Source: a virus. Taken from it: a stretch of 64,000 nucleotides of DNA. The notes beneath the pieces were generated by a model. It was given only the letters and a program-made list of their open reading frames with translations. It was not told the DNA's origin and made no database searches. Every line of letters begins with the position of its first letter. Within the stretch, counting starts at the first letter, position 1. The stretch lies in the IMG/VR virus record IMGVR_UViG_3300009156_000026, positions 44,691-108,690 of that record. One strand, written 5' to 3'. The position numbers were made by a program, and so were the translations under genes. Below are positions 24,001 to 46,654 of this stretch, in pieces.

Positions 24001-25066
24001 GGCGCTCCGTCGCCAGCACGGGGCCCAGAACGAGATCGGGGCGTGGCTGGGCTGGAACGCCCTCGGGTCGTTCATGCCAGCGGCTGGGCTGACCCGCACG
24101 ATCGCCCAGAGCCAGGACCCATACGCCAGATCCACCGAGTTCGGCGGCATCAGAGAAGGGCTGGCCTACGGCGTGCCGGACCTGGGCCCGGCGCCCGGGC
24201 TGCGGCTGCCGTTCGGCCTGCCGGACCTGCTCGCGACCCAGCAAGGGAGCCCGACTGGGCGACGCTCGGGGCTGGCCATCACGAGAGACGCGCTGGGCCG
24301 CCCGGTCGAGAGCGAGTACAGCGGCGCCTACGCGTGGCTGCCGTTCCGCGCGACCCAGGAGCACCTCGACGACGCCGTGCTGAACACGCTGCTCGACGCG
24401 AAGGTCGGCGCCCCCAGCCCGCCGAGCGAGTTGTTGTACAAGGTCGAGCGGCCGGGCCAGTGGACGCTGGTGGCGATGCCGCAGGCCCTTAGACAGGAGT
24501 TCGCCCGACGGGTGGGCGAGGCCGCCAACGCCCGCGTCCAGGCCGAGATGCAGGCGGTCCCCGAGGCCCAGCGCAAGGCCGACCCTGACGCCTGGAGCGA
24601 TCGGCTGAAGGCGGCGATGAGCGAGACGTTCAAGACGGTCCGCAACGAGATGCAGGACGACCCGGCCGTCAAGGCCCAGCTAGCCGTCTTAGCTCAGGAC
24701 TCCAACAGGACCCGCCCGTTCGAGTCAGCGGCAGCGGTCGACAAGCTGCTCGGCCGCGAGCCCGCAGCGACGCCCGGGGCCACGCCACGGCCGGGCGCAA
24801 CGCCCGTAGCTACGCCTCCGCAGCCAGCCACCGATCCGAACGAGGCCGCCAACCGCGCTCGTCGAGCCGTCGGGCTGCCAGACTTGCCTCCTGGTCAACA
24901 GGCACCCGTGACCGCCCCTGCCACTCCACCAGCGGGTACCCCGACGACGCCAGCGCCCGTCAGGACGCCGTCAGCGACCCAGGCGCCCGCAGCCCCGGCG
25001 GCGACTGATCAGAAGGAAGCGGTGAACAGGTCGCGACGGGCCGTTGGGCTGCCGCCCCTGCCGTAG
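6089..25066 (+). CDS. Giant polyvalent virion protein, 6325 aa
   Basis: One uninterrupted frame starts at a GTG directly after the previous stop, with AGGGGGAG upstream. Visible modules in order: acidic PSYEEP repeats; lysozyme-like, M23 and amidase domains (residues about 145-650); hydrophobic helices (1194-1400); metzincin-like protease (1560-1750); ADP-ribosyltransferase-like (1860-2100 and 2490-2690); HhH glycosylase-like (2790-3080); a second HhH-like region (3170-3490); acetyltransferase-like (3785-3920); a copy of the first ART-like module (4011-4243); a conserved phage domain with EEIQSDW (4390-5065); and a membrane-type C-terminal domain (5450-6105). A Pro/Thr tail carries two RRAVGLPxLP repeats. 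This matches the polyvalent proteins thought to be packaged and injected with phage DNA. Several boundaries carry a GPSAM motif. Three small genes overlap it out of frame, so some linkers may be recent read-through. Individual domain calls are weaker than the overall one. Confidence 0.85.
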   Translation: MAAEEWEYEYDYDQPEDSGEDTSYEYEEPSYEEPSYEEPVYQEPSYQEPSYEEGGDWYDAYARGYSGGGLGYVAPEAEPESWYDAYAQAFSPRVEQRPTDPYAWSYNEGGRPETIDTWADGRPMDEKAAKQARIYRVALENGLDEEGARVLVAVTETEAGLFGALGDGGQSRGPFQFYEGGQMPAFRQWVQANGIPGDPNQLVHDPEIATSFAASNYLGAAIKRGQAQGLHGADLATYAQRTGQVSVSPERTGENYQRLFATGDPYGDAIRVAQPSAGARARANAQIPPGHWDGDGHDHGVATPYTQQQVGRDGSVWQIAFDFDQPYADPFNPQIPNHRGVDLQLAGAPNGGENTPYTAMRNGRVVKITNDPHGGIGIIVDTGDPSARYDRYFHNNAVSVREGDVVQAGRTNLGVIGQTGSQGFPHLHYEVSQNVDGDPMGQTIDPRPYLGPPPGRPQAAVRAQPGAPWDPYAPYGGAQQQQPRAAAAVAAQPNVVELTTPYTSGRRQTTDGIVIHATRGQGETPQAEYEWTLGWFGKNPYQVSANAVIGPDGQIAMPRDWDLITHHAGENNATKFGIELAQSAADSARGVPYTDAQYASLGWLLGQLHQRYGIPIDRSHVVGHEELDQGRRQNKTDPGENFDWGRALQLGAQPQRGVPAQQATQTARVAPAAPYQDVGGTAPGRPPAGTPTPATGGSYTVGGRPATREQYDAAVASDRESRDRFLAQLPEPTRNAYTEWEAFRRSRGEDPNDIPAFRAHIDRLGVENPWTGQEQRREQARVAREQFEASLPETTRTQFREWAADREARGQDLTLPAFREHLGALGAPDPWTAQEQAARAAAARPAAATPPPPAGRTVYRLAGGTEISEAQAQEIGRQNAAAERINAGYNERIAAARVERERLRTWQAQSDAYFNDPNGQLPHPGPRPSTENLDWLEADAARGADTGAREQPITVVSSYNEPASADEVAAARARAEARVQTGALTREAAASSDPLVQAAQAAQARSTQLLQQVENQRILDRESPLDPRYIALVRSQELQRQGAMQEGPLPQLTDQEIAMPTIRPAQPERFNQAIYDYYRNRGYSEEQARAEATLAPAREATMEPPSPRVIQADPVPEVDPNISTYEALANAAIRGTAGLATGLYNIPEAVGYYTGQTWLEEESRERIRGIQGAVRESGALRQSGNQWYQSPLGFFEGAAENLPNVAATVGAAFLTGGGSIAAMAAGGGARVVAPLLVRGGMAASRAALVAGSLASGGQMRESLRDEVAAGLINQETADFAGAVAAATEALTETVMPGLDRMVLRGFGLQAAKEIGHELIKRGLGGALKTVGGEIVNEAGEELVTEAVGIGTDLAFSAQKPTMLEAAERLATAGVMGGALGGAMAGPITASGAVVQALEGRRETANARQLDAAFGSPADQLARDGVQVVVASPDFGTYAVRHIDPTNPNRQRAFTLNISEDAEGNAVVTPGGAYRGEPLRTIDLQDPTADRMRAARNAGAALTYLNQQGVISNETASGAIESLQKRAEAAASGAAVATQARPSREASLEEGPERSEGYIKPDGWSDVGTIPGTDLHLRAADHLPQPLVSQIMRAEADRVIAASVSELTDRMDKRSQDLGITPRTIVRRLMGTSLYGAGMIAQNDNIFVEGTRNRETGIGTLGGFQFDTGAIIFDAINDAKEAGYSLAQFLDPRVGGRFLAAKIAEVAVHEPSHDVNAYHGERFHQTMTAYRQALVAEQRALEPIMRELVSSGAVERSLALHAQMYRDHARHWYWRGRGRDVAAELAARDARRGTPLGGAIDVRRPDSQGGRGARPAAARPVPADGRGVGAITLRGPGLRPAAQAGEPATGVPELGPPSPLVSREAAMASGVPVEMPSDPRVQQALARTPGIQVTPDGLVVDATRFQRRGSGGAPSLSGNVYYGVSGPETTIGGDNSYYDQRDRLVYGGSEAVRGPTVLRRPFVGTSGAFHPEGAQTIAEAVGDQDAARPLAVLNQAGFLNTASPEARAAITDAMEQYGVDRAIPERIFQALDSGLIREQAARSNLSEAVAGEALRRAGYDGYIRLNPDNTVDSIMDVREQTYPDEEGRTALHPQFEGAAPAVTRSADGYEQIGMFDSDEVRPSNMAAREAALSRPIPTRVQYPPEVAQQLQAAGLELQPERGLVVPMAAPAAGGVEADRRPDGGISFTELTPGPGGREVALANPIIHQGGTMATDRAQALADLLGEDPGTGSRLVEAIQDAIAQDGPTTENVRTIMASIGLGDPDQAALLVKAARGDTGQGSGSLANHIVSQMLAHEGRIHGHDGLVTLGPDGAPSIASFQRPQDTADTGYVVDDGQLLYRGEAETPPSYQVQDGQLVHQGTGYEVQDGRPVYQGPSAMVPSIRPMRDAVEAEIAKMEGHRTESLARAEQSGDSWGYDANNARLLEQQIARRRAVLDRVESRAPLDFPGVEPRIIVPAEAGEGVTTSSDWNGGVRAWAQINGATVRGVPIDVDDERVPDVLYHATTNLPAVQRSGMLRAGGVGGLGGDNRDNIVSLTISRPIADGIARDLRTAIDVARIPEPATVQVPWEDSRGRTHYSTEWADPEEYQRYREAVITRLQAQARTEGWTWDAEHISPTAAGRDIFSTYFQVRSYQTDLKNPLIYTELDALRLIDPENIGVVEVPRDALRTGALLTDLDLGRNHLEEIRSYGDVPLQPGVPTSGPSAMQGELPPPPPIVRPDQRSSQPFPSNVIIPRQFIAPDLRAGPETELAEPPPFAGPPLVGTEEAIDAGWAGIPDPRTPIENRADLHNRLVLTRFLSQRELKEILGERPQDLQQVIDFMVAQRQKVVEGRLLPSDVAKAYLMTVSSQGQGAIDPQIILDKTGLAIPDHFLTPNRDGVRQIRAEDAAAAWIASPTGQRTLAQLDQGTFDEAGWENAASIRAAFSDDRLNNNNVMGTRPNRRGRISMRDVVALTADLNQIGDNPRAMAAAVERLNGIGPRKTGFIQHLLGFGEMPTLDARALNTWITGQGDIRGMDTEAAQIARLMNQHYAADATGILTLARIISGYNQLRRSGFAPDIPKAVYNAVLHNWLWTRIKGHERTYAPMYEAQAAPVEPIPQTEWSRDDFETRNQMMESWMRDPYEAEDRELGPYDPDAREGPSAMAAEIPSIPAYLREHAVPFAGYEPNTIEGRMEQVLMDAARAQGTNRPQFEKGELGKLEPKFLPSPTATKVEIKKNPDGTNKKDKKGKDVWVESNYGVTPALEDQRVALQLGRPASRWYTELAHWVYERVGPEAFDEFRVIFGVTSAQTEPTENMATTFAAMKIAREMAAEGILDDAHRDEFHARMKAYRIPSVSEGVANVEKDGTPKMVGFRTYTEGKGKQIMDLYTTGSVTVQTNAKTPSYAGNMISALMGVYDPNVTVDVWMARAMNYWSTSWMATSDQAYRASHAIYNWLAREEGISPHEAQAAIWFPIKTAWERGGTAIRQKIQDGDLADALRDAEQAGLLRPELIRGDLAAINADARVQHAWEQLAPVIASSPLSPGQAEAGVTDIVYPGQTRGRGETKEPARPVDRAQRAALLDVAEGQAPTVGIVGVPDRAALGYANGQLDWLGQPHQVVPIGDGLMVRLVGGNLDTARYVAAELGERAGAPAVSLQLASTEGNALGYVFSSSGEEPIEKADLEAISALVAGTGIPLVADPGGHYVALIDSPSVPEEIYNSTVDAIANLGIAGLEQEGYRGWAEHLPAAEYRGTIQALGHRFGAGEPQDLPVGAAGGDRAAEEGGAEAQGVGPSAMGAEAPWAEGWSQPTPEEFLRIRSQSDRGAYLSASDVDSLRGKRLFVKPTDTGGYAGFALDEDNDLQNVFNVPGPDGRKSKGAGVDAMLMGISQGADKLDAFDPFLPKYYHQFGFRETGRVPFNDEYAPEGWDYANGRPDVVLMTWDGFHNGESPDDVRARVGGPKTEWIAQPHARTFDDWDQAAEVRDGRLADLRGGAVPGRVRPVAGPGRGGPAVRPDTGPGAAGRGDLAGPSAMVGREAAITTGVPLDLPTRRGFLQAVENTDGAQITPDGLSVDLIRWQQPEQVGAEAGQSAVFYLASGTHARDVDTYRGTFLGDYGGDQRIAGPSVFRRPFVARAGVGDAAIAAYAALNGQEATDAMRGPVGRLGGFPRLSRDEVVARTRDILTRHDAGPEAAEQIVDAYRLGAPLENAVEERIVSHDLRRRGYDSVIGYSGVGRNARLTELMDVRERTYPDETGQTELHPQFGPGPSAMAAEIPGWVPVSGMPDDLHQRVLSGSPRLQAVAAESTATLQEALMEALDSDPLMTDADRQVLHGHASFYTSAIVGLATEDPARLEAVGLDYASAELERDRAIGHLERIGRLDALYNAEAAWASLSPRDDPSQGRPSAMAGEVPVTLAEPFYSRLTQVAGALPEMIEGNPGRLVRDKARPERVVRRAAQNPNREEPPPERGWIMAEDGSWIEPAREGSERMVEVTTGAQETMRRLREAGAKPDELAWTGVETWLRDQGDGPIDRAALMDHLSQRRIVVEEMVLGGREIGQIHVYQDGPEEIVEQEPYEVEEGYEDDEGNYVEPEYLYDDESEPEYRYTFRAAPEENELGDELVYEATGNDDQGYWVTTVDGEPIGNDPVDDLERVERAIGDHARLRLEEPLPEGVAGPVQFEWEPGDPSAPLVQPGGEEYREVLLILPWRGREELALFEQAADRASDAYHAFTADHSYEERVDDLDLRRQSLELLDAANRARAELDAKRVEVERQRYTGSHFTQPGSYNPVENVAVHVRMTTRIGPNGERRVFIEEIQSDWQQQGREKGFMPKSGLPKGYAVEFRPPSRIDPTQATRIGGRFDNASGRYVDETVLEPGTPEHARQMRSYSKWYAVTPDEAARDDAAFDSEAEARTYLERQIAKDNPPPEFPFMRTESWATLAFRRMIRWAAEHGYDQIAWTTGAQQNDRYGPRRIKNPEALPKFYDGVLVTVATDLGKPWGVAPTRSQISVHETGQFGQVVEQPDGWRYTLPNGTSLGGYPTQEAAQAAADAEAERAGTAEAVHVLDIPPQMKRSALEEGQPLFMAGEMPTGQPPGDPEAQWDRQDPQDATDPALAEAIDLDGAVQEIDDPDALPRTDGPEQVQMILPGFDTVPISDEEYDRIVAALDANEAVSGAPPVGGAAPQISAPPTSPPPGPPAPPISFPEDEPVPGVPNLGPPTGNEPNLDQFPSWAQALLEMGSLVEMGDPNVGMLGERARLIREVQARPNAEAMSAAQIEAAADRILAQRREFRAANETEWADAIMMIAAGPNAEGLSRREQQILAGAIMRQYKLFQRAADRAQGQRATPWSVAQMLDEARKFSAIRGLAITPRDQWAMLDEVWRSAPVTQGASGTLEEFLEVRQAAQDAGDTDAVARLEEEGIARASGMVARTRPTPIAGRRRATAEGELVRYGRTMADQVRGETTPSEAAAAAAAPDLSIHPWEILSNVRYNNMLLGPRGILNDYAWNTGMLFGKMMADPFLPETGGLDPRARWAITKVEAAAMARYLPLAIRRMGRILFTGVDTLESEATGAPRNISGRLTRRIENAREEGAGERSPKLLKLKASKVGAVLFAELAGRLKGMADVGIKQIAWGMEMNRQAAILAWREGVHEVDSDEWHERIAEIMAGNIAGPNATPEERRAATATHLQMQKNARREAERTTFQGDMGTFGRKLEPIQRHPVGQFVLPFLKTLYHIRGWAIDFSPLGLAGTVYDVARSAAYKKVMQSDRGQRMLGTPNIPLPFGQAIPTRNAFGILGGPYQDAWRGTQVGPGVADLDRRLMANMIGTTGFFYLLGLAFEGALSASGPPDDPIVWFDEELPSGDARSLKRTMQATGWRPYSVKIPWRGQDYWVNYSNWGPLGYMMGAAAAIGESYLYGVSAEKKRPLTGSPFPDSWQGIQDLWNGGDGDTLRTARRRFFGMISDVTFLSGMSDLVKLTDAAWDWVVPEGPETPSMALRRQHGAQNEIGAWLGWNALGSFMPAAGLTRTIAQSQDPYARSTEFGGIREGLAYGVPDLGPAPGLRLPFGLPDLLATQQGSPTGRRSGLAITRDALGRPVESEYSGAYAWLPFRATQEHLDDAVLNTLLDAKVGAPSPPSELLYKVERPGQWTLVAMPQALRQEFARRVGEAANARVQAEMQAVPEAQRKADPDAWSDRLKAAMSETFKTVRNEMQDDPAVKAQLAVLAQDSNRTRPFESAAAVDKLLGREPAATPGATPRPGATPVATPPQPATDPNEAANRARRAVGLPDLPPGQQAPVTAPATPPAGTPTTPAPVRTPSATQAPAAPAATDQKEAVNRSRRAVGLPPLP
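6521..8040 (+). other. Triple peptidoglycan-hydrolase module of the giant protein
   Basis: Three hydrolase-like domains follow the acidic repeat. The first is lysozyme/transglycosylase-like, with TETEAGLFGALGDGG and then SRGPFQF (Glu followed by a GPFQF-type turn). The second is M23 metallopeptidase-like, with H-x3-D in NHRGVD (near residue 338) and HxH in PHLHYEV (near 426). The third is an amidase_2/PGRP-like domain, with putative zinc ligands in IVIHATRG (near 515), SHVVGHEEL (near 622) and KTDPG (near 637). All key residues of the last two appear intact. The likely role is local wall digestion during DNA entry. Confidence 0.75.
10770..11350 (+). other. Metzincin-like metallopeptidase module of the giant protein
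   Basis: The stretch VAVHEPSHDVNAYH fits HExxHxxNxxH, with His1708, Glu1709, His1712 and His1718. This has the spacing of the metzincin zinc site, with Asn in place of the usual Gly. A second His-rich turn (GERFHQ) follows. Polyvalent phage proteins often carry metallopeptidase domains of unknown target, so an attack on host proteins after injection, or self-processing, is plausible. Confidence 0.6.
11424..11648 (+). CDS. Small gene embedded out of frame in the giant gene, 74 aa (first)
   Basis: An ATG at 11424 follows GGAAGGGG at 11411-11418, a good Shine-Dalgarno at 5 nt spacing. The product begins MSQPSSQPEMPDAGLPSGEL, then has a hydrophobic-helical stretch (LLMFVGLIVKAAEEQ) and an amphipathic C-terminal half ending GNPLLASLS. 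I counted G or C at about 67 of 74 third codon positions in this frame, against about 33 of 75 in the giant frame over the same bases. This frame therefore has the codon signature of a real gene, and the giant frame reads an Arg/Gly/Pro-rich shadow here. After its TAG the giant frame resumes with a module starting REAAMASGVP. The function is unknown. Confidence 0.7.
   Translation: MSQPSSQPEMPDAGLPSGELLMFVGLIVKAAEEQDQRLLDLYLRMAEESGLSRSEVLAYALRRRPGNPLLASLS
11660..12400 (+). other. ART-like module 1 of the giant protein
   Basis: This module begins SREAAMASGVP and ends in GYDGYIRLNPDN, followed by DVREQTYPDEEGRTALHPQF. The late G-Y-D-G segment and the Asp/Glu-x-x-x-x-Pro end resemble the C-terminal part of ADP-ribosyltransferase-like domains in phage polyvalent proteins. 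An approximate copy lies at 18119-18815 with the same N- and C-terminal phrases. The enzymatic assignment is tentative because I cannot align an unambiguous catalytic Glu. Confidence 0.4.
13540..14170 (+). other. ART-like module 2 of the giant protein
   Basis: The start VLYHATTNLPAVQRSGML, then GGLGGDN and VSLTISRP, then NIGVVEVPRDALRTGALLTD, follows the YH-T ... S-T ... E order of the diphtheria-toxin-type ADP-ribosyltransferase superfamily. The DarT/RNA-phosphotransferase branch has the same YHxT opening. Target and activity are unknown. Such domains in injected phage proteins could modify host proteins or nucleic acids. Confidence 0.5.
14420..15330 (+). other. HhH-GPD (DNA glycosylase)-like module of the giant protein
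   Basis: The segment LNGIGPRKTGFIQHLLGFGE followed by MPTLDARALNTW fits the helix-hairpin-helix then Gly/Pro...Asp pattern. The Asp is the 25th residue counted from the Leu, the same spacing as in MutY-like glycosylases. A Lys follows the hairpin Gly-Pro. No Cys cluster is seen. A second, weaker region with VTVDVWMARAMNYW (near 16290) has a similar end. A DNA-binding or base-excision role on injected DNA is inferred. Confidence 0.45.
17244..17399 (+). CDS. Small gene embedded out of frame in the giant gene, 51 aa (second)
   Basis: A GTG at 17244 follows AGGAGGG (17232-17238) at 5 nt, one of the best Shine-Dalgarno sites in the window. The product is basic: MAGQSISLRPSIEERFKRLG, a middle part with QVVIVLP, and a Lys/Pro/Glu tail. 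Third-position G/C is 46 of 51 codons in this frame, against 23 of 52 in the giant frame. The TAG at 17397-17399 is followed in the giant frame by the GPSAM boundary motif. The function is unknown. The size and basic charge would suit a small binding protein. Confidence 0.7.
   Translation: MAGQSISLRPSIEERFKRLGIGSAPASHKIYQSGPQVVIVLPKKAEPKPKE
17430..17870 (+). other. Acetyltransferase-like module of the giant protein
   Basis: The order is GGYAGFALDEDNDLQNVFNV, then a Gly-rich KSKGAG, then DKLDAFDPFLPKYYHQFGF, then PFNDEYAPEGWDYANGRPDV. It resembles a GNAT-related domain I know from large phage polyvalent proteins (beta strands, a Gly-rich loop, then LDAFD and the GF turn). The canonical acetyl-CoA Q/R-x-x-G-x-G/A loop is only partly matched, so activity is uncertain. 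Confidence 0.4.
17877..18104 (+). CDS. Small gene embedded out of frame in the giant gene, 75 aa (third)
   Basis: An ATG at 17877 is preceded by GGAGAG (17864-17869) at 7 nt. The first 35 residues are polar and Pro/Ser/Thr-rich. The last 40 (DDSLTSEEVQFLDECVPLLG and onward to DQGRQVGEI) look like a helical domain. About 66 of 75 third positions are G or C. Over the first 28 codons the giant frame also looks genuinely coding (end of the acetyltransferase-like module). Beyond about 17960 only this frame does. The gene thus overlaps the module end in the way two separate phage genes would. The following module begins GPSAMVGREAA. Confidence 0.7.
   Translation: MTSAPGSEDPRPSGSPSLTPEPSTTGTKQRRYATDDSLTSEEVQFLDECVPLLGQDVVDRQYGLILDQGRQVGEI
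18119..18815 (+). other. ART-like module 3, copy of module 1
   Basis: It shares with 11660-12400 the start REAA-x-x-x-GVP-x-x-P, the segment ITPDGLSVD (TPDGLVVD in module 1), VFRRPFV (VLRRPFV), LRRRGYDS (LRRAGYDG) and the end DVRERTYPDETGQTELHPQF. It arose by duplication or by two acquisitions of related modules. The copies differ at most other positions, so the event is old. Confidence 0.5.
19255..21275 (+). other. Conserved phage domain with EEIQSDW in the giant protein
   Basis: The segment opens VTLAEPFYSRLTQVAGALPE, has LAWTGVETWL, a long acidic insertion (EVEEGYEDDEGNYVEPEYLY), then VHVRMTTR and IEEIQSDWQQQGREKGF, then WATLAFRRMIRWAAEHGYD followed by IAWTTGAQQ, and ends IPPQMKRSALEEGQPLF. 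I recognise this as a widespread domain of large phage proteins. Its biochemical role is not known to me. The conserved Glu/Asp/Trp and His-Gly-Tyr-Asp segments suggest an enzyme. Confidence 0.5.
22440..24400 (+). other. Membrane-type C-terminal domain of the giant protein
   Basis: This region contains LSNVRYNNMLLGPRGILNDY, a helical part with ERTTFQGDMG, a hydrophobic segment near 23480-23550 (FFYLLGLAFEGALSASG), then TGWRPYSVKIPWRG and YWVNYSNWGPLGYMMGAAAA. The GWxPYSxKI...Y...P-G order is typical of the C-terminal large polyvalent-protein domain (LPD38-like) of many phages. A role in membrane passage during ejection is inferred. Confidence 0.5.
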
Positions 25067-35377: not shown

Positions 35378-36886
35378 TTGCCCACCTTGGACGAATATCG
35401 AAGAAGAACACTGGAGGAGGAGGGCGGCGTCCTCGGGGTCCTCCAGACGACCGTCACGCTCGACCCCGACCTGACCGACCGCGACGCCGCCCGATCGGTG
35501 ATCTCCGCCCGTCTCTACGACGATGAGAAGCTGTCGGGCGCCTACGGCAGCCAGTACGTCTGGGTCCCCAGGTGGTCCGACCAGCGGCGGACGCTCCAGC
35601 GCGGCTACCGCGTGCGCTACGCCTCGATCTACAGCCCGCCGGACTCGGGATCGTACCGCCTCCAGTTCTACGGCTACGGCCAGACCCGCGAGATGCCGCA
35701 CGCGACCGCCCCCAGAGCGGTCGAGCAGGAGATCAGGCGGCTGGACCCGGACCTCTCGGGGGTCGACGTCGAGGAGGACCCGCTGGGCCTGCTCCTGCAC
35801 CTCGACTTCCGCGTCGGGGTCGGCGCCACGGCCGGGCGGATGGTCGCTCAGGGCGGCGTCGGGATCGCCCTGGTCAACCGCGACTTCTCGCAGGCGCTGA
35901 CCAGGGGTACACGGATCCTGCTCTCGCCCAGGATGCCGTTCGAGACCGAGGATGAGCTCCTCGGCTTGCATCAGTGCATCAATCTGGCCCTGTCCGACAT
36001 CCGCGAGCCGGATCTCTTGCCGGTGGTCTCGCCGTACCCGTCGACCCAGCGTCCGTCGGTCGTCAGGCTGAGAGACCTCGCGCCCTGGCTGGAAGCGGAC
36101 ATGGTGACGGGCTTCTTCGCCCCGACCGACCACGTCTCGGTGACCTGCTTCCGCCCGCCGTCAAGCGGCACCTACCTGCTCCAGCCCGTGACCGCGATCG
36201 AGTGGTCACCGACCCCGACCCCGCTCGCCTACAACGCCACGGGCGCCGAGATCGAGGCCCAGCTTGCCTCGGTCGGCGCGATCGGGCGGATCCGGGTCGA
36301 GCCGCAGGGCCTCTCCCCCCAGTTCGACCTGATCTGGCAGACGATGCACCATCAGGCGACCTTCCTGGCATCCTCGGGGGCGATCGTCGGCTACTCCTCG
36401 GAGCGGCTCCACGATCCGTACCCGACCTCGATCGCGCCGTCCTACATGGGCGACTTCGAGGCCGACACGTTCAGCGATCCCGGCTACCCGGCCGATCAGT
36501 CCTGGTTCGTCGGCTGCCGCCGTCCGTCGTCGACCCGCATCTGCCCCCAGACCTACCCGTACAAGGCGGACGGCAGCCCCGACCAGAGTAAGGAGCCGAT
36601 CCCCGGCACCTACTGGGTCGAGTCGGTCTCGGGGCTGGTCCACGACCTCGATCAGGCCCGCCCGCCCGTCGAGGTGGTCGCCCCGGCCGCGCTGCGCTAC
36701 GCCTGCATGGCGCTGGCCAACGTCTCGCCGGCCGGCGAGGCCGCCCGCTGGGAGGCCCTGGCCCAGAAGCAGGCGATGCATGCCGCCGCCCGCGTGGTCT
36801 ACGGCAAGCAGCTTCGGCACGGCTACTCGACGCTGGGCCCATCGTGGCCGCCCCTCGACGGCAGCCGGGGGTTCTGGCTGCCGTGA
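35378..36886 (+). CDS. Hypothetical head-tail or tail protein, 502 aa
   Basis: It starts at a TTG 7 nt after CAGGGGGGT. No ATG gives a good alternative without losing the charged N-terminus (LDEYRRRTLEEEGG). The protein looks mainly beta-structured with aromatic residues, such as LQRGYRVRYASIYSPPDSGS, then FYGYGQTREMP, and a C-terminal helix (WEALAQKQAMHAAARVVYGK). It has no linker-like low complexity, unlike the genes upstream of the capsid. Lying between the HNH insertion and a large tail gene, it is likely a connector or tail-tube component. No family was recognised. Confidence 0.7.
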   Translation: MPTLDEYRRRTLEEEGGVLGVLQTTVTLDPDLTDRDAARSVISARLYDDEKLSGAYGSQYVWVPRWSDQRRTLQRGYRVRYASIYSPPDSGSYRLQFYGYGQTREMPHATAPRAVEQEIRRLDPDLSGVDVEEDPLGLLLHLDFRVGVGATAGRMVAQGGVGIALVNRDFSQALTRGTRILLSPRMPFETEDELLGLHQCINLALSDIREPDLLPVVSPYPSTQRPSVVRLRDLAPWLEADMVTGFFAPTDHVSVTCFRPPSSGTYLLQPVTAIEWSPTPTPLAYNATGAEIEAQLASVGAIGRIRVEPQGLSPQFDLIWQTMHHQATFLASSGAIVGYSSERLHDPYPTSIAPSYMGDFEADTFSDPGYPADQSWFVGCRRPSSTRICPQTYPYKADGSPDQSKEPIPGTYWVESVSGLVHDLDQARPPVEVVAPAALRYACMALANVSPAGEAARWEALAQKQAMHAAARVVYGKQLRHGYSTLGPSWPPLDGSRGFWLP

Positions 36887-36921: not shown

Positions 36922-39075
36922 GTGAGACGAGTTGCATTAGATGGATATGACATGACCATCGACGGAAGGATTGGCCTCAATCTGTTCCGCGATGGCAAGC
37001 GGCCGGCCGTGCTGGGCGGCAAGTTCGGACCGTCGGAGCAGATGCGCAACCCCGGCGCGCTTGAGCAGGCGGTCGTCCTGGATCGCCTGGACGGCGGGGT
37101 GGGTGCGGTCGAGCGGCAGGTCCCGAACACCTACCCATTAGCGATCGACGGCTGTACGCGGTTCGGACGGGCCTGGACGCCGTCAGGGTACATCACCGAC
37201 CTGCCGCCGCTCGCTCCCTTCGACCTCGTGCCACCCGGCACGATCACCGGGCTGCTGCCGTTTCGAGGGGTGCTGCTGGTCGGGGCGGGGCGGGTCATCT
37301 ACGGGGTTGGCCCCGACGAGCTCGACGTCGCGATCCCGCTCGGGGTGCTGGCGAACCCGAACGAGGTCGTCTGCGACATGGTCGAGTTCCAGGGCCTGTT
37401 GTGCATCGGCACGACCAACACCCTCTCGGGCCAGCCCGGCCACCTGTACATCTGGGACGGGACCGCGCTGGCCTCCGGCACCACGATCGCCCAGCACCTC
37501 TACAAGACGTATCAGGTGATCGACGACCTCGGGTCCTCTCGACTGGTCGGCAACAACACCCTCTTCACGTTCAAGTTCATCGCGGCCACGGACCCGCCGG
37601 GCTCGGTCACGATGATCGACTTCCTGCTCGATGGGTCCAACTGGGTCGGCCCGGCCGGCACCAACGGCTATCAGGTCGGGGACACCTCGGCCCCGATCAC
37701 CAACATCGGTGGCTCCCCGCTGGTCGTCTTCTTCGCCAAGACCGATGGCGTCTACCACGTCGGCCCGGACGGACGGGCCGCCCGCATCGTCGACTGGTCG
37801 GACTCCCAGCACCGCACCAATGGGCAGGTCTTCAAGTTCGCCTACGGTGGGATGTACGCCTCCAACTTCCGCTGGGGGCTGGTCCGTGTGGACGTGGCCA
37901 ACCTCCAAGTCCAATGGCAAACCAACGCCTGTGGGCCCGGCGTCAACCTGCCACGGGTGGTGCCATCGACCGGGCTGGTGACGGCGATCACGCTCGACGG
38001 CGAGTGGATCGTGATCGCCCAGTGGAACGGGCGCGACTCGTACACCTTCTACGCCCGCCCGGTGGAGATCACCGAGCGGGTCGCGATGATCAACATTGCC
38101 TCGCCCCAGGCGTTGAACTGGCACGGGTCCGAGGGGACGTTCTGGGGCAAGCAGGTGACCCAGCTTGAGGTGGTGGTGCTGGGCTCTGGGACAAGCGAGC
38201 GCCCGCTGCTGTTCGTTGGCTGGCAGCGGCCCGACGGGACACCCGGACTCTCGCACGTCAGCCTGCCGAAGCTCGGGACGCCGCTGGAAGACTGGCTCGT
38301 CGGCGGTCCACACCGCTTCCAGCCGTCAAGCTGGCTCTACTTTCCGAGGCAGGACTGGGGCGATGAGCGCGGCGGGCCGTTCGGCGGCTGGGCCAGCGTC
38401 AGAAAAGTCTTCAACAGGTTGGATCTCTCGGCCGACTACCTGGAGCGGTACGCCTGCTGGGTGGACGCCTACATGGCGAACACGGGCGGCCATGGCCTGT
38501 TCTACGACCGCGCGCTCTCCGACGGGGAGGACGGCTACGACCCGCTGCGCCCGACTCTCTGGACGGGGGTCGGGCGGTTCGACGAAGGGGATCGGATCTC
38601 GATGGTCCCCGGCAAAACGATCCAGTCGGGCCTCAAGGCGGCCCTGATGCTCAGGGGCCACTGCGAGCCGAACCACCCGTTTGCGTTCTACGGGGCGAAA
38701 TTGCGCGGCACCCCGATGATTGAGCAGAGCGAGCGGCGGCAGTACCGGGTGACGTTCGGGCGCTCCCGCAAGGCCAACCAGGGCCAGGACCACCGCGAGA
38801 TCTTGTCGATCATGAACGAGATGTGGGCCTTGCAGTGGGCCGACCCGGTCTCGCTCAGCGATCAGTACCGGCTGCCGCTGGTGGTCGATGTCGAGCCGAC
38901 CATGAGCTACGAAGACACCACGGAGCCGAGCACGGGCGAGCCGACCGTCGTCGTCACGTTCACCTGTCGGGTCGTCAGAAGAGGGTTCTTCTGGGGCGCC
39001 GGGTACAGGTGGGGTGGCGAGATCGTTTGGAGCGGCGGCGGCCCGACGATGGGCCCGCCACCGCCGACGGAGTGA
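36922..39075 (+). CDS. Large tail structural protein, 717 aa
   Basis: A GTG start follows CGAGGGGGCCCG at about 10 nt. The protein has repeated beta segments of the kind found in propeller or tube proteins, for example VPPGTITGLLPFRGVLLVGA followed by GRVIYGVG, GLLCIGTTNTLSGQPGHLYI followed by WDG, and TLDGEWIVIAQWNGRDSYTF. The WDG/WNGRD turns recur about every 50-60 residues. The C-terminal third includes YGAKLRGTPMIEQSERRQYR followed by VTFGRSR. It ends Gly/Pro-rich. It is likely a major tail/nozzle-type protein of a short-tailed phage, inferred from position and fold type only. Confidence 0.65.
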   Translation: MRRVALDGYDMTIDGRIGLNLFRDGKRPAVLGGKFGPSEQMRNPGALEQAVVLDRLDGGVGAVERQVPNTYPLAIDGCTRFGRAWTPSGYITDLPPLAPFDLVPPGTITGLLPFRGVLLVGAGRVIYGVGPDELDVAIPLGVLANPNEVVCDMVEFQGLLCIGTTNTLSGQPGHLYIWDGTALASGTTIAQHLYKTYQVIDDLGSSRLVGNNTLFTFKFIAATDPPGSVTMIDFLLDGSNWVGPAGTNGYQVGDTSAPITNIGGSPLVVFFAKTDGVYHVGPDGRAARIVDWSDSQHRTNGQVFKFAYGGMYASNFRWGLVRVDVANLQVQWQTNACGPGVNLPRVVPSTGLVTAITLDGEWIVIAQWNGRDSYTFYARPVEITERVAMINIASPQALNWHGSEGTFWGKQVTQLEVVVLGSGTSERPLLFVGWQRPDGTPGLSHVSLPKLGTPLEDWLVGGPHRFQPSSWLYFPRQDWGDERGGPFGGWASVRKVFNRLDLSADYLERYACWVDAYMANTGGHGLFYDRALSDGEDGYDPLRPTLWTGVGRFDEGDRISMVPGKTIQSGLKAALMLRGHCEPNHPFAFYGAKLRGTPMIEQSERRQYRVTFGRSRKANQGQDHREILSIMNEMWALQWADPVSLSDQYRLPLVVDVEPTMSYEDTTEPSTGEPTVVVTFTCRVVRRGFFWGAGYRWGGEIVWSGGGPTMGPPPPTE

Positions 39076-39258: not shown

Positions 39259-39725
39259 ATGGCCGAGCCGGTCCAGCCCAGAGAAGGGGACGTCGCGTTC
39301 GCGGTCAGTGTTGCGACGCTCTACGACCTGACGATCGGGCGGGTCGCCTGGGACGTCAGGCTGACCCGCTGGAGCTCGCCCGACAAGGCGACGTTGACGC
39401 TGGCGAACAGGACCCCCGGCGGCCCGGTCTTGAACATCCTGCCGTGGGACTTCTACCTGACCCCGCCGGGCCACCCGCTGCCGCCGCCGATCCTGTCGAT
39501 CTCGAACGACGGCATCTCGTCGATGCGGGTCGGCGGCTACATCGACCTGCTGGAGCAGGCGTCGGCGCCGGCTGCCCGGCGGCGGGCTCAGACACGCTGC
39601 GGATGTACTACCAGGGCGACCGTCTCTGGTTCAAGCTCGACGGCGTAGACGACCCGTTCGAGATCCCGATCGGGGAGGCGCCCGGCCCGTCCGCCCGCTA
39701 CGCGTTCTGGATGGGGGGCGGCTGA
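39259..39725 (+). CDS. Tail-fibre-type protein split by an apparent frameshift
   Basis: The ATG at 39259 follows GGAGGGGG. The starting frame reads sensibly to about 39575 (GGYIDLLEQASAP) and then turns Arg/Ser/Thr-rich until a stop at 39648. From about 39585 the -1 frame reads SDTLRMYYQGDRLWFKLDGV and on to a stop at 39725. Joined, they give EQASAP...LRMYYQGDRLWFKLDG, the phrase often seen in phage tail fibres (EQ-x-SAP...LY-x-K-x-G-x-L-x-x-K). No canonical -1 slippery heptamer is present. One lost C in GCTGCCCGG would restore the frame, so a mutation, a sequencing error or unusual recoding are all possible. Confidence 0.6.
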
Positions 39726-39726
39726 G

Positions 39727-40104
39727 ATGCCTGAGTTTCCAGACCGTCTGTGTGACAACGAGCTTTCCCGTCGGCCAGCCGCCAACGCCTACAAGCTGTA
39801 CTACACCGCCACCTCCGCAGCCTACTTCGGGATGGGCGTGGCCAACACCACCACCGGCGACCTGCACGTCTCGGTCTTCCTGATCCCGGCCGCCGAGGTC
39901 GGCTGGTCCGAGCCGTCCGCGCCCCCGCCGTACACCGAGATCGTCAGCCGCAAGCTGATCGAGGCCGACGCCACGCAGAGCGAGCCCTGGGAGATGCCCA
40001 ACTGCGTGCTGCGGAGCGGCGACAAGATCGCCGTCTTCACCGACGTCGTGGGCGCCAACTTCAACGGCCACGGCATCCGCATCACGGGCGACCCGGTCCC
40101 ATGA
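39727..40104 (+). CDS. Hypothetical tail-region protein, 125 aa
   Basis: The start lies 1 nt after the preceding stop and the end overlaps the next ATG (ATGA). The protein is beta-rich and well ordered: AYKLYYTATSAAYFGMGVAN, then TTGDLHVSVFLIPAAEVGW, then CVLRSGDKIAVFTDVVGANF. It resembles small beta-sandwich tail accessory proteins (fibre-associated or baseplate). Located between the split fibre gene and the fibre at 40101. No family name can be given. Confidence 0.65.
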   Translation: MPEFPDRLCDNELSRRPAANAYKLYYTATSAAYFGMGVANTTTGDLHVSVFLIPAAEVGWSEPSAPPPYTEIVSRKLIEADATQSEPWEMPNCVLRSGDKIAVFTDVVGANFNGHGIRITGDPVP

Positions 40105-41597
40105 GCCGTGGCGCGACGCCGTACGCCACCCGTGGGACGACCCTGGCGCTGCCGAAGGGGACGCTGGAGAACCCGGCCCTGCGGCTGGGCGGCGAGCGGC
40201 TGGGCCTCTATCGGGTGGCGCCCGCGCGGCTGGGACTGGGCGTCAACAGGTTCCGCGCCGTCGAGGTGGCCGAGCAGGGCACGATCGTGCGCTCGAACGC
40301 CCCCGGGGCCGGCAACGTCGCCCCGCTGGCGTTTGCTCGCGCCAACCCGACCACCGACGACGGCCAGGAGACGGCGCTCGATAGCTTCGAGGGGACCCAG
40401 CTTCGCGGGCGGCTCGCGCTCTACCGCCAGGAGACGGGCAAGTACGGCTGGCGCCTGTACGGCTCGACGGGCGGGGCACTCACGACCGACCTGACCCTCA
40501 CGGGCGACGGCGACTTGACCACCCGTCGGGACCTCCACGCCGTCCGCGACGTCCGCGCCGACCGCGACCTCGTGGTGGCCGGGGCCGGCTCGGTCACAGG
40601 CCAGTTGACGCTCAATCAGGCGGTCAATCAGACGGCCCTGTCGATCCCGAACGGCAACGCCGTGCTCGGCGGCACGCTGCGGGTCACCGGCATGCTCTCC
40701 GCGAACGGCGGGATCACGCTGCCAGCGGGCGGGCTCTCGATCCCGGCCGGCGGCCTGAACGGCAACGTGATCCAGGCCCGCACGCTGGTGGGTACCCAGC
40801 TTGTCGTCGGCACGCTTGGGTCGAACGAGATCGCCGTCGGCGGCGTCCACGGCAACCGCCTCCAGGGCAACACGGTCACGACCAACGAGATCCAGGACGG
40901 CACGATCCTCGGGAGCGACATCAACGCCGGCACCAGCATCTCGGTCGCCGGGCTGACCGTCGGCGGGCTGGGCGCGACGCTCGGCGGCGTCGTGCGACTG
41001 ACGGGGGCTGGGTACGCCCTCCAGATCGACAACAGCATGAATGTCGGCAGTCAGGTCCTCGCCAACAGCCTGAGCGCGCTGAGCGCCACGCTCACGTCGA
41101 GCGGGGCCTCGGCCCTGGATGTTACCGGCGGCGGCAGCTTCGGCGGCTCGCTCAGGACCAACGGCAACCGCTTCTACCAGCAGGTCTCGGCCAGCGCCGT
41201 CTCCCAGATCATCAGCGGGGTGGTGCCCGGCGAGCGCCAGGAGATCCAGTTGTGGGGCTACAACGCCGGCGTGCAGGCCGTGATCGGGCTCGGGGCCGGG
41301 GCCGGCCAGTACATGGGCGGGTACGGCGACCTGTCGATCTACACCGCGACGGCCGGGGCGCTGCACTTCGGGGTCGCGAGCTCCCGTCGGATGTCGATCA
41401 CGGCCAGCGGCGACGTCAACATCGACGCGCGGCTGTTCACGACGGCCTACATCAGCTTCACGATCCCCGGCTCGCAGTCGATGGTCTTCGACATCTGGGG
41501 CAACACCTGCCTGTCCGCGTCGGGCGGGGCGATCGTGACCTACATGCAGATCCGGGTGGGCGGAAGCTTCTACAAGCTGGGCCTGCACGCCGTCTAA
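40101..41597 (+). CDS. Tail fibre or spike, probable receptor-binding protein, 498 aa
   Basis: After a basic N-terminus, residues 125-350 consist of short Gly/Thr/Asn-rich repeats such as LTGDGDLTTRRDL and LPAGGLSIPAGGLNGN, then VGTQLVVGTLGSNEIAVGGV, which predict a beta-helix or triple beta-fibre. The C-terminal 130 residues form a different, globular-looking domain (SQIISGVVPGERQEIQLWGY, ending IRVGGSFYKLGLHAV), the likely tip. It overlaps the upstream gene by 4 nt. Its position after tail genes and before the lysis cassette fits a host-recognition fibre. Confidence 0.75.
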   Translation: MSRGATPYATRGTTLALPKGTLENPALRLGGERLGLYRVAPARLGLGVNRFRAVEVAEQGTIVRSNAPGAGNVAPLAFARANPTTDDGQETALDSFEGTQLRGRLALYRQETGKYGWRLYGSTGGALTTDLTLTGDGDLTTRRDLHAVRDVRADRDLVVAGAGSVTGQLTLNQAVNQTALSIPNGNAVLGGTLRVTGMLSANGGITLPAGGLSIPAGGLNGNVIQARTLVGTQLVVGTLGSNEIAVGGVHGNRLQGNTVTTNEIQDGTILGSDINAGTSISVAGLTVGGLGATLGGVVRLTGAGYALQIDNSMNVGSQVLANSLSALSATLTSSGASALDVTGGGSFGGSLRTNGNRFYQQVSASAVSQIISGVVPGERQEIQLWGYNAGVQAVIGLGAGAGQYMGGYGDLSIYTATAGALHFGVASSRRMSITASGDVNIDARLFTTAYISFTIPGSQSMVFDIWGNTCLSASGGAIVTYMQIRVGGSFYKLGLHAV

Positions 41598-41976: not shown

Positions 41977-41989
41977 GGGATGCAGCCCG

Positions 41990-42247
41990 ATGATCGACTG
42001 GCCCGGCTGGGTGGAGAAGTTCACGTTGCCGGTCGCGATGCTGGCCGTCGCCACGGTGATCCTCTGGAAGTTCGTCGGGGCGACGCTCGATCGGGTCTTC
42101 AAGCTGTACGAGGCCCGCTTAGCTGCCCTGGAACGGCGCCTCGTGGCCGACGAGGCCCGGATCTCGGCGCTGGAGACCCAGCGCGACGAGCTCGTGATGC
42201 GGCTGCTCCCAAACATCGCCGCCGCACGGGGGGAGACGTCTCCGTGA
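41990..42247 (+). CDS. Holin-like small membrane protein, 85 aa
   Basis: One transmembrane segment (FTLPVAMLAVATVILWKFVG, residues 11-30) is followed by a charged coiled coil (LYEARLAALERRLVADEARI and onward). It directly precedes and overlaps the endolysin gene (GTGA junction), the usual holin position. Single-TM holins with a cytoplasmic coiled coil exist. An anti-holin or a membrane-anchored structural protein is the alternative. Confidence 0.6.
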   Translation: MIDWPGWVEKFTLPVAMLAVATVILWKFVGATLDRVFKLYEARLAALERRLVADEARISALETQRDELVMRLLPNIAAARGETSP

Positions 42248-43650
42248 AAGCGCTGATGACCAGCACCCCCGTCGTCTCGGGCGCCCCGCCCCACTACGAC
42301 TGGACCTACCCGTCGATCCTCCAGAATCACGACTGGGATTGTAGCGAAGAATCGACACGATGGTGCCTGTTCGCCTACGGGAGGACGCCAGACGACGCCT
42401 GGATGGAGTCGTCGATGATCGCGGCTGGGGTGATCTCGCCCGAGGCCGGCTGTCTCGACGCGACGGGTGCTGGCTTGGCTCAGTGGGTCAACGACCAGTA
42501 TGGCGAGTACGGGTATCTGGCCTCGAACGAGCCGACGGTCTCCTTCGACGCCGTCATGGCCGAGGCGCGGACCCACAAGCACCCGCTGGCCATGGGCGGG
42601 CGCGCCTTTTACCACTGGGTCGGGGTGCGTGGCTACGACCCGGTGATGGACCGTCTCATTCTTGCGAACCCAGCCCCCGGGTACAAGGGCATCTACCAGA
42701 CGATGACCCGCCAGGAGTTCGAGAACCTGGGCGGATTTTCGATGTTGCGGGTCACCCACCCCGAGGCCGAGAGCGGCGGCGGAGTGGTTCCCAGCACCTT
42801 GCCTGGGGGGATCGACGTAAGCTCGCACCAGGGCTACGTCGACTGGACGGCCGTCCGCAACGCCGGCGCGGCCTTCGGCTGGAGCAAGGCCACGGGCGGG
42901 GCGTGGTACAAGAACCCGACCTTCTCCGCCAACTGGGCCGGCATGCAAGCGGCCGGCCTGAAGAAGGGCGCCTACCACTACGCGTTCGAGCCGTCTGGCC
43001 AGCCGTTCCCAGGCCCGGGCCCCGAGGCGGAAGCCTCCTACTTCCTGGACACCGTGGCCCCGCTCGGCCTGAGCCAGGGCGACATGTTGTGCCTGGACAT
43101 CGAAGAGGGCGCAGGCGACGTCGCGCGCTGGGCGCTCCAGTGGTGCGAGCAGGTCGAGAAGCTGGTCGGCTTCGCCCCGATGCTCTACTCGGGGGCGTGG
43201 TTCACCGACCAGCACGGCTTCGCTCAGGTCCCCGACCTGAAGCGGTACCTGCTCTGGCAGGCCGCCTACCAGTCGACGATGCCGGCCCCCGCTGCCCCCT
43301 GGGACACGATCTCGATGTGGCAGTTTACCGACTCGGCCACGGTCCCGGGGGTCTCTGGCGGGGTCGACGGCAACTGGTTCAACGGCAGCCTCCAGGACCT
43401 CCAGGCCCTCGGCAAGCCCGGCCAGGGGCCGTCTCCTGAAGACCCCTACCTGCCGTGGCGGGGCCTGATCGGCTCCGGGATCTTAGACATGATGGAGGTC
43501 GACGGTACGCTGCCGGCCTCTTCCAAGAGTACGTGGCTCCCGCTTGGGACCTCGCCCGCCGACGTCGAGTCGGTGATGGGCCAGAACGGGGTCACCTACA
43601 ACTGGACGGTCTCGACGACCAACCAGGGCTTCCGGTACCGGCCGGAGTGA
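42244..43650 (+). CDS. Endolysin: papain/C39-like domain plus GH25 lysozyme, 468 aa
   Basis: The GTG at 42244 overlaps the holin-like stop by 4 nt. The longer frame from 41980 reads a shadow and is rejected. Residues 20-165 resemble a cysteine peptidase of the C39/papain type (QNHDWDCSEESTRW with Cys32, YHWVGVRGYD with His near 124). Residues 188-400 are a GH25 muramidase: GIDVSSHQGYVDWTAVRNAG, KKGAYHYAFEP, and LDIEEG with the Asp/Glu pair (near 284-286), ending in a WQF and DGNWFNG segment. The C-terminal 70 residues may bind the wall. It cleaves the glycan backbone for lysis, with a possible peptidase activity. Confidence 0.85.
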   Translation: MKALMTSTPVVSGAPPHYDWTYPSILQNHDWDCSEESTRWCLFAYGRTPDDAWMESSMIAAGVISPEAGCLDATGAGLAQWVNDQYGEYGYLASNEPTVSFDAVMAEARTHKHPLAMGGRAFYHWVGVRGYDPVMDRLILANPAPGYKGIYQTMTRQEFENLGGFSMLRVTHPEAESGGGVVPSTLPGGIDVSSHQGYVDWTAVRNAGAAFGWSKATGGAWYKNPTFSANWAGMQAAGLKKGAYHYAFEPSGQPFPGPGPEAEASYFLDTVAPLGLSQGDMLCLDIEEGAGDVARWALQWCEQVEKLVGFAPMLYSGAWFTDQHGFAQVPDLKRYLLWQAAYQSTMPAPAAPWDTISMWQFTDSATVPGVSGGVDGNWFNGSLQDLQALGKPGQGPSPEDPYLPWRGLIGSGILDMMEVDGTLPASSKSTWLPLGTSPADVESVMGQNGVTYNWTVSTTNQGFRYRPE

Positions 43651-43655
43651 GTGGG

Positions 43656-44405
43656 ATGGCGATCATGACCGACCGTCATGCCACCCACCTGGGGCGCCGG
43701 GTGATCGTCGACTCCCGCGACCTCTGGTACCTGCTGGCCGATCAGGCGCCTGAGGTCTTCACGCAGCCGCTGGCTACCCGTGGGCGGGTCGTCTTCACGC
43801 AGCCCCCGGCTACCCGTGGGCGGGTCCTCCGTGGCCCCGTCTACGACCAGGGCAGCCATCCATGGGCGGTCTCCTGCGCGCTCCTGGCCAACCTGCACGC
43901 CTCGCCACGGAAGATCGGCGTGCCAAGAACCCCGACGGTCGAGATCCTCGACCGCCTGATCCGCGAGATCGAGGGGGCCACTGGCCCGTCGGTGACCGTG
44001 CGATCGGGCTGCAAGGCGCTCAAGCGGCTGGGCCTGATCACGGGCTACGCCTGGAGCTACGAAGCGTCCGAGGTCAGGGACTGGCTGCTCTCTGGCCGTG
44101 GGATTACCCTGGGCCTGGACTGGTACGAGATGATGGACCAGCCCGACGAGCAGGGCCTGATCCGCGCCTGGGGGCGGCCGGCTGGTGAGCACGCCGTGTT
44201 CGCCTTCGGCTACGACCTGCTGACTGACACGGTGCTGCTCCAGAACAGCCGTGGGCCCGACTGGGGCGGCTGGTCGACGAGGCCGGGCCGCCGCGACTTC
44301 CGAGGCTGCGCGCGGCTGCCGCTGAGCGACCTCAACAAGCTGCTGGTCGACAACGGCGAGGCCGTCGCCCTGGCCAAGAATCCGGACTGGCGAGGCATGC
44401 CATGA
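43656..44405 (+). CDS. Papain-fold (C1-like) protein with atypical active site, 249 aa
   Basis: The ATG lies 5 nt after the endolysin stop. The fold markers of C1 peptidases are present: VYDQGSHPWAVSCALLANL near residue 63, EHAVFAFGYDLLTDTVLLQN near 178 with the His, and NSRGPDWGG with the Asn. The cysteine that should precede the first Trp (C-W in papain) is Pro (HPWAV), and the only nearby Cys is 4 residues later. The protein is therefore either inactive or uses a displaced Cys. Residues 34-57 are two 12-residue repeats. A wall-peptide or tail-associated role is inferred from the neighbours. Confidence 0.6.
   Translation: MAIMTDRHATHLGRRVIVDSRDLWYLLADQAPEVFTQPLATRGRVVFTQPPATRGRVLRGPVYDQGSHPWAVSCALLANLHASPRKIGVPRTPTVEILDRLIREIEGATGPSVTVRSGCKALKRLGLITGYAWSYEASEVRDWLLSGRGITLGLDWYEMMDQPDEQGLIRAWGRPAGEHAVFAFGYDLLTDTVLLQNSRGPDWGGWSTRPGRRDFRGCARLPLSDLNKLLVDNGEAVALAKNPDWRGMP
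43755..43826 (+). repeat. 36-nt tandem duplication in the papain-like gene
   Basis: Two copies (43755-43790 and 43791-43826) differ at two bases and encode VFTQPLATRGRV and VFTQPPATRGRV. It is a recent in-frame duplication in a linker before the papain-like domain. Confidence 0.85.
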
Positions 44406-46654
44406 GGCTGGGCGTCTGTATCGGCGGGTCCGTCCTGACGCCGGACTGGCGCGTCGAGGCGCTGGGCGGGACGGCCGTCTCGTTCCCGCTCGGGCCGCCC
44501 GACGAGGAGGTGGCCGGGTACCTGGAGTGGTTCCGAGGGAAGGGCCACGACGTCCTGGCGGTCCTGGGGCCACGGGCGATCGTCGAGCCCGGCGACTGGC
44601 GGGCCTCGGCCAGGGCCGCGCTCGGTCGGCTCTCCGGGCTCGTCGCGGAGGGGCTGGTCACCCAGGTCGCGCTGGGCTACGAGCCGGACGACGGCTGGCC
44701 GGGCGACCCGATGAGCGACGACCCGCTGGTGCTGCCGCGCGGCGGGGTCGGCTCCTGGGTGCTGTCGACCGCCGACCTGGGCGAGCTCGTCCACCGGGCC
44801 CGTGAGCAGCTTGGCCAGCGGGTGCCGCTCTTGCTGGGTGGGCTGGTCTCGGGCCGTCCCGAGTGGCTATCCCGGCTGGATCTCGCGGCGGTCGACGGCG
44901 TGCTGATCCACCCGTACGCCGAGCAGGACCTGGGGGCCCTGCTCGACGGCGTCGCCTCGGAGATCGCGGCCCAGGGCCTCACGGGACGGGTCTCGATCGG
45001 GATCGGGGAGCTCGGCCGATCGGACCACGTCCTCAGACGGGGCGCGATCGCTGACTGGTACGCGCGAGTCCTCCCGGAGCTTGCCCAGCGTGGCGACGTC
45101 GCGGCCTGCTTCGTCTGCTGCGACTCCGACCTGACCCAGGACGGCTACGGCCTGTTCGACGCCCAGGACCGCGCCAAGCCGGCCGTCGCGAGCGTCTTCG
45201 AGATAGCCAAGCGACTGGTCGGCCCGGGATCCGAAGCCTCCCCCGGCAGCCCGCTGGTGGGCCTCCAGCCAGAGCCGGTGTCCGACGAGCCCGATGAGCC
45301 CGATGAAGACCTGCCCTGGCCACGGAGTCTGGCCCTCTCGCCCGAGGAGATCGGACGGGCGCTGGGGCCGCCCGCCGGCGGGGTGCTGGAGGTCGACAGC
45401 ATCGTCGCTGTCTGGCCCGAGGCCGGCCCCCACCTCGCGCTCTACGACGTCGACCGCGAGCCGTCCCCCGCCGTGGCCCTGGTGGCGGCGATCTGGGTCG
45501 GCACCGACGGGACCTTTCGTCCCTCAGCCGAGGACGGCCGCTACGATCGCTGCGAGCGCCTGTACGGCCGAGGGACCCAGACCGGCCTGATGCTGGGCAA
45601 CCGCCACCATGGCGACGGCCATCGGTTCCGGGCCCGTGGGCTGGTGCCGATCCGTGGACGGGCCGCCTACGAGCGGTACGGCGACCTGCTCGGGTTCGAC
45701 CTCGTTGCAGACCCGGACCTCCTGCGGGAGCCGGCGATCGCGATGGCGGTAGCTTGCGCCCTGTTCGAGGCGAACGACCTGTGGGCGGCAGCAGCGAGAG
45801 GCGACTACGCCGCCGTCAGGCGAACGATCGACCCGGGCCTGAACGGGTACGCGGCGTTCCTGGGGGCCGTGCAGCGCCTCTGGGCGATGATCGATCGCCA
45901 GGGCGACGAGGCGGCCGAGCTCGATCAGCCGGCCCTGGCGGGCGTCTACGCACGGGCCCAGGCGATGGTCGGGCAGCCGTATCAGCTTGGCGGCGCCCGT
46001 CCGGCCGGGTTCGACTCGGGCGGGCTGGTTGCCTGGGCCTACCTGACGGCCTCCGGCACCGACCTGCCGATCGACCCCGACGCGATCGCCGGCTGGTCGC
46101 AGCCGATCGGCCCGGAGGCTGCCCGTCCGGGCGACCTCGTGCTGTACCAGTACGGCGACCCGTCCCGTGGCGGGGCCGGCTACGCCCACATCGCGATCGT
46201 GACCGAGCGTCCAGATCTGGTCCTCGATAGCCGGGTCGGGCTGGGGGTCGGGACACGGGCGCACGTCCAGGGTGCGGTCAGGCGGTACCGACGGGTCTTC
46301 ACCGACGCCCAGCTACGACAGGCAACGACAGAAAGCGACGAGGCGATGTGGAAAGAGCGCTACGAGGAGGCGATGGCTCGGGTCGGTGAGCTCGCCGGGC
46401 AGATCGATCTGGAGCGCGCCAAGCTGAACGCGGCGATGCCGATCGTGGCCAGACCGGCCGACTCGGCGGTCAAGGCCGAGCACGTCGAGTACGGGCAGGC
46501 GATGGAGCGCTGGCAGGGCCACATGGTGGCGATGCTGGAGGATCGTGACGTCGGGCTCATGCGGATCGCGGCCCAGATGCAGGCGCTGCCAGACGCCCTG
46601 GCGACCACACCAGGGCCACAAGTGGACACAACGGGACAGGAGACGTCTCCATGA
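44402..46654 (+). CDS. Multidomain wall-hydrolase-like protein, 750 aa
   Basis: The ATG overlaps the previous stop. Residues 1-285 look like a TIM-barrel glycosidase (LAVLGPRAI, VDGVLIHPYAEQD, VSIGIGELGRSDH with candidate Glu). Residues 300-500 resemble GH19 lysozyme/chitinase (LMLGNRHHGDGHRFRARGLV followed by PIRGRAAYERYGDLLGFDLV and ADPDLL). Residues 510-635 are an NlpC/P60-like domain (GQPYQLGGARPAGFDSGGLV). Its catalytic Cys is replaced by Ser539 (FDSGG in place of FDCSG), while the His region GYAHIAIV remains. The tail is a coiled coil. It is probably a tail-associated or lysis-helper protein, partly non-catalytic and perhaps wall-binding. Confidence 0.65.
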   Translation: MRLGVCIGGSVLTPDWRVEALGGTAVSFPLGPPDEEVAGYLEWFRGKGHDVLAVLGPRAIVEPGDWRASARAALGRLSGLVAEGLVTQVALGYEPDDGWPGDPMSDDPLVLPRGGVGSWVLSTADLGELVHRAREQLGQRVPLLLGGLVSGRPEWLSRLDLAAVDGVLIHPYAEQDLGALLDGVASEIAAQGLTGRVSIGIGELGRSDHVLRRGAIADWYARVLPELAQRGDVAACFVCCDSDLTQDGYGLFDAQDRAKPAVASVFEIAKRLVGPGSEASPGSPLVGLQPEPVSDEPDEPDEDLPWPRSLALSPEEIGRALGPPAGGVLEVDSIVAVWPEAGPHLALYDVDREPSPAVALVAAIWVGTDGTFRPSAEDGRYDRCERLYGRGTQTGLMLGNRHHGDGHRFRARGLVPIRGRAAYERYGDLLGFDLVADPDLLREPAIAMAVACALFEANDLWAAAARGDYAAVRRTIDPGLNGYAAFLGAVQRLWAMIDRQGDEAAELDQPALAGVYARAQAMVGQPYQLGGARPAGFDSGGLVAWAYLTASGTDLPIDPDAIAGWSQPIGPEAARPGDLVLYQYGDPSRGGAGYAHIAIVTERPDLVLDSRVGLGVGTRAHVQGAVRRYRRVFTDAQLRQATTESDEAMWKERYEEAMARVGELAGQIDLERAKLNAAMPIVARPADSAVKAEHVEYGQAMERWQGHMVAMLEDRDVGLMRIAAQMQALPDALATTPGPQVDTTGQETSP

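Follow-up and report, generated by a model that had tools for sequence, protein, structure and literature searches.

A phage gene carried in two reading frames, probably broken by an ordinary insertion or deletion

The window, meaning the whole stretch of DNA that was analyzed, is 64,000 nucleotides long and covers positions 44691 to 108690 of the 108,690-base virus record IMGVR_UViG_3300009156_000026, whose source is an uncultured, GC-rich bacterial virus (phage). Its recognizable genes include one for the major head protein (31890 to 32993; PHROG 1357) and two lysis-type genes, one encoding a GH25 domain (frame 41980 to 43650) and the other an NlpC/P60 domain (44402 to 46654). Between the head and lysis-type genes lie two genes without a family (35378 to 36886 and 36922 to 39075), the frame-broken gene that is the subject of this study (39259 to 39725), a gene for a protein of 125 amino acids on the plus strand (39727 to 40104, beginning at ATG 39727 and identified from the list of open reading frames and from its codon signal), and another gene without a family (40101 to 41597), the product of which is possibly fibre-like. 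The neighbors at 36922 to 39075, 39727 to 40104, and 40101 to 41597 gave no family match in Pfam or PHROGs, the lysis-type genes come next, and no tape-measure gene was recognized near the frame-broken gene. Ahead of the GH25 gene, 41990 to 42247 encodes a small protein that contains a hydrophobic segment and looks holin-like by eye; for the GH25 protein itself, the codon signal points to a start near 42235 to 42256 and not at 41980. Elsewhere in the record, upstream, a stretch of 57 residues (L003:13415-13585) resembles residues 223 to 277 of the protein encoded at 40101 to 41597 (39% identity, E value of 1e-5).

From ATG 39259, which is preceded by a good Shine-Dalgarno sequence (CGGAGG/GGAGGGG, 5/6), frame A reads ...GGYIDLLEQASAPAARRRAQTRC... 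and reaches a stop codon at 39646 to 39648. Frame B, one base back from A, reads ...AGSDTLRMYYQGDRLWFKLDG...FWMGGG and stops at 39723 to 39725, one base before ATG 39727 of the next gene; a stop abutting the next ATG is the pattern expected for a natural gene end. Third-codon-position GC is 0.87 to 1.00 in frame A up to about 39570 and then 0.90 to 0.97 in frame B, and the codon score of A is strongly negative past 39580. The 5' part of the gene (39259 to 39573, plus strand) accordingly comprises 105 codons of frame A up to the switch region, marked by the Shine-Dalgarno sequence, by third-position GC, and by a codon score that is positive in A only. The 3' part (39576 to 39725, plus strand; ...GSDTLRMYYQGDRLWFKLDG...FWMGGG) is marked by third-position GC and by a codon score that is positive in B only, and the out-of-frame tail of A (AARRRAQTRCGCTTRATVSGSSSTA and neighbors; 39574 to 39648, plus strand) is without codon signal.

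The two frames were compared with a three-periodic codon model, for which the training set consisted of other long open reading frames of the record, both open reading frames of the frame-broken gene being left out of the final set. Over 39259 to 39722, the model gave 44.3 nats for A followed by B, versus -3.7 for A only and -29.6 for B only. Allowing one switch gains 48.0 nats, which is far beyond chance, the maximum being 9.7 among 399 equal-length windows drawn from intact genes outside the giant open reading frame described below. When the likelihood was evaluated for all junctions, the 95% interval for a net -1 switch was 39554 to 39592 (plus strand), with 39559 as the best single position. 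An earlier note on this DNA had proposed a -1 frame change at 39560 to 39660, and both reading frames, the third-position GC, and the codon model confirm it. When all 108.7 kb of the record were scanned, this was the sole gene-to-gene frame change outside the giant open reading frame to combine a large overlap with the lack of a well-placed start. Because the switch gain exceeds the intact-gene null and because B ends directly before the next ATG, 39259 to 39725 is by far best described as a single gene that runs in two frames. The hallmark of an indel-broken gene or of a consensus error, namely, a single gene's codon signal spread over two frames, the second of which lacks a start signal, is present here.

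Read as two overlapping genes, the same DNA would encode a 129-amino-acid protein ending at 39648 and a separate 40-amino-acid protein beginning inside A at ATG 39603. This ATG lies in frame B and is the only start codon of B near the junction, and orphan frame transitions commonly stem from overlapping genes (PMC3711429). However, ATG 39603 has no Shine-Dalgarno sequence (best match of 3/6), in contrast to ATG 39259 (5/6) and most of the neighbors, and the overlap would amount to 46 nucleotides, above that at the other gene junctions of the record, where other same-strand frame changes start close to the upstream stop. The codon score over 39603 to 39648 is -12.5 for A versus +5.6 for B, and B is ahead of A by 3.8 nats already in the 22 nucleotides that precede ATG 39603. 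On this evidence, a pair of overlapping genes is very unlikely.

The switch interval contains a GC hairpin on the plus strand (39563 to 39584), identified by DNA folding, in which the stem CG-G-CGCCGG/CCGGCG-G-CG (6 bp, a G.G mismatch, and 2 bp) encloses the loop CTGC. By DNA fold, this hairpin ranks in the top 0.1 to 0.15% of 30-nucleotide windows and is one of the 43 loci in the 64 kb that reach -12 kcal/mol or lower. An imperfect 8-bp tandem repeat, CCGGCTGC/CCGGCGGC, with 7/8 bases equal, occupies 39568 to 39583 on the plus strand; a period-8 repeat of such quality occurs in 1.8% of random 39-nucleotide intervals. The hairpin and the repeat were spotted post hoc, and the chance of each coincidence is on the order of 1 to 2%. 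Both are indel-prone contexts that make an indel plausible, and they cannot tell a mutation from a consensus error. Illumina errors have been reported at inverted repeats and at GGC, but indel errors are rare in such data, at about 3-5e-6 per base (PMC4787001). The earlier note had suggested that a C was lost from the C-rich stretch GCTGCCCGG. An indel in a C/G-rich stretch does offer the simplest cause, but the loss of a single C at that site is unproven, because the junction can be placed only within 39 nucleotides and because a change by one 8-bp unit of the imperfect repeat gives a net -1 shift, the same as losing one base.

A -1 direction and a strong hairpin at the junction would also suit programmed -1 ribosomal frameshifting, by which A and B would be fused during translation with the hairpin acting as the stimulator, and the PRFect authors report phage frameshifts that are annotated yet have no known motif (PMC10885494). 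The slip site, however, is absent. It had been noted earlier that no canonical slippery heptamer is visible, and this holds for the A-frame heptamers from 39541 to 39600, all of which fail: after a -1 slip, they match at best 2/3 plus 1/3 bases of the two codons, and the tRNAs could not re-pair. Homopolymers are at most 3 bases long from 39541 to 39660, and the eight -1 motifs of PRFect (PMC10885494) are absent at the junction; the patterns were read from the motif names, all except "threethree" and "threetwotwo" needing runs of at least 4 and those two being absent by inspection. The hairpin at 39563 to 39584 sits on the junction itself, with no slip site upstream, and not a few nucleotides 3' of one. 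The fold of the 101-nucleotide RNA around the junction is no better than that of shuffled sequences (z of 0.79), and the gene is not in a recognizable tail-assembly-chaperone position. Programmed frameshifting thus appears highly improbable. Transcriptional slippage was rejected, there being no homopolymer longer than 3.

In ribosome bypassing of the T4 gene 60 type, the ribosome would hop from CCG 39568 to the identical CCG 39576, 8 nucleotides away, across the hairpin loop. The codons are matched, have the right spacing, and lie in the two hairpin arms; a matched codon pair at suitable spacing, however, is found in 66% of random 39-nucleotide stretches of ordinary genes of the record. In T4 gene 60, a stop codon follows the take-off codon, whereas the take-off codon CCG 39568 is not followed by a stop codon. 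Bypassing is exceedingly improbable here. Recoding that joined A and B in translation, whether by a -1 shift in the absence of a slippery site or by a short CCG-CCG hop across the hairpin, would amount to a decoding signal of an undescribed kind, and we give that prospect a very small chance. Should reads reveal a fixed and conserved shift, the locus would represent a recoding site without a known slip motif in a virion gene.

The identity of the gene was examined by comparison with known sequences. The earlier note had taken the joined sequence to form a known fibre phrase, which the searches do not support: neither half matched PHROGs, Pfam, or phage genomes above chance, the joined A-plus-B sequence had no match in Pfam or PDB, no relative of either half was found in the viral contigs and genome contigs scanned, and the 108.7-kb record contains no internal paralogs of either half. 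The label "tail-fibre-type" for 39259 to 39725 is unproven and derives from position and neighborhood alone. An AlphaFold2 single-sequence model of the 129-amino-acid open reading frame was unusable (pLDDT of 41). When relatives of the halves and of the neighboring genes were sought in viral contigs, genome contigs, and phage records, a single relative, IMGVR_UViG_3300015200_000003 (56,965 bases), was found, by way of the head protein. This sister phage is collinear with the record at about 70% DNA identity (mostly about 65 to 78%), and its contig stops at the equivalent of about 38014, inside the homolog of 36922 to 39075 and about 1.2 kb before the frame-broken gene.

Frame changes of another kind occur within the giant open reading frame (6089 to 25066, plus strand), which encodes 6325 amino acids with Amidase_2 and M23 domains. 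The whole-record scan also flagged three short stretches of it in which the codon signal switches to the +1 frame and then returns, the giant frame being uninterrupted throughout. Nested frames, each with a plausible Shine-Dalgarno sequence and its own stop, lie on the plus strand at 11424 to 11648 (ATG 11424), 17244 to 17399 (GTG 17244), and 17877 to 18106 (ATG 17877). Host-frame stops are suppressed when a GC-rich gene contains another gene nested at +1, and for this reason the openness of the giant frame is not in itself strong evidence. These stretches are likely to be nested genes in the linkers of a giant phage protein. A giant open reading frame (about 6,500 codons) is present in the sister phage as well and has four stretches of this +1 type. 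The first nested peptide is conserved between the two phages, with its relative frame unchanged (40% over 52 residues, E value of 1e-6). Because it is conserved, this stretch is not the type of sequence error contemplated at 39559. Two segments of the giant protein, at 11650 to 12000 and 18110 to 18433, are paralogs of each other with about 41% identity, and each immediately follows a nested gene.

For the frame-broken gene, we assign a probability of roughly 0.86 to the reading that 39259 to 39725 is one gene broken by an ordinary indel, whether a genuine mutation of recent date or an error in the consensus. On this reading, the uncultured phage has in its virion/tail module a gene of about 150 codons, the frame of which is broken by one net -1 indel (3n-1 bases) within 39554 to 39592. 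The change, at the GC hairpin overlapping the imperfect 8-bp repeat, could be a genuine mutation that arose recently in the phage population sequenced, or it could be a consensus error, and translation of the DNA as it stands would be expected to yield a 129-residue protein with its last 24 or so residues scrambled. We infer that the event was recent and non-programmed and that it arose through slippage, mis-copying, or mis-reading at the hairpin/repeat structure. Codon bias is undiminished in the B half as far as the stop that abuts the next gene, and the break is therefore young or not real. If it is an error, it would not simply be background noise, because Illumina indels are rare and because the record has no other such break outside the giant open reading frame. 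A phase-variable gene was considered and rejected, the longest homopolymer being 3 and the switch having just two imperfect 8-bp copies. The frame-broken gene is probably ordinary. If an indel or an error is responsible, the relevance of the locus is limited to annotation, and 39259 to 39725 should be treated as one interrupted gene and not as two open reading frames.

Three known systems offer comparisons. Phage tail assembly chaperones of the gpG/gpGT type, in which the -1 shift is programmed, resemble this locus in belonging to a phage virion-gene region and in the direction of the shift, but here there is no X_XXY_YYZ or related slip site, no recognizable adjacent tape-measure gene, and no relative that shares the arrangement. 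T4 gene 60 is similar in that matched codons flank a hairpin loop; it differs from the present case, which has no stop after the take-off codon, a spacing of 8 nucleotides, and a codon match that is likely by chance. Antonov et al. (2013) attribute orphan singleton frame transitions to gene overlaps (33%) and otherwise to sequencing errors or indels (PMC3711429), and the switch at 39559 is a transition of this type. It shares with the orphan class of GeneTack (PMC3711429) a single codon-signal switch in an otherwise normal gene, with no homolog that has the same switch and no recoding motif, whereas it is distinguished from that class by a 3' half that keeps its full codon bias and by a site that consists of a hairpin and an 8-bp repeat instead of a long homopolymer.
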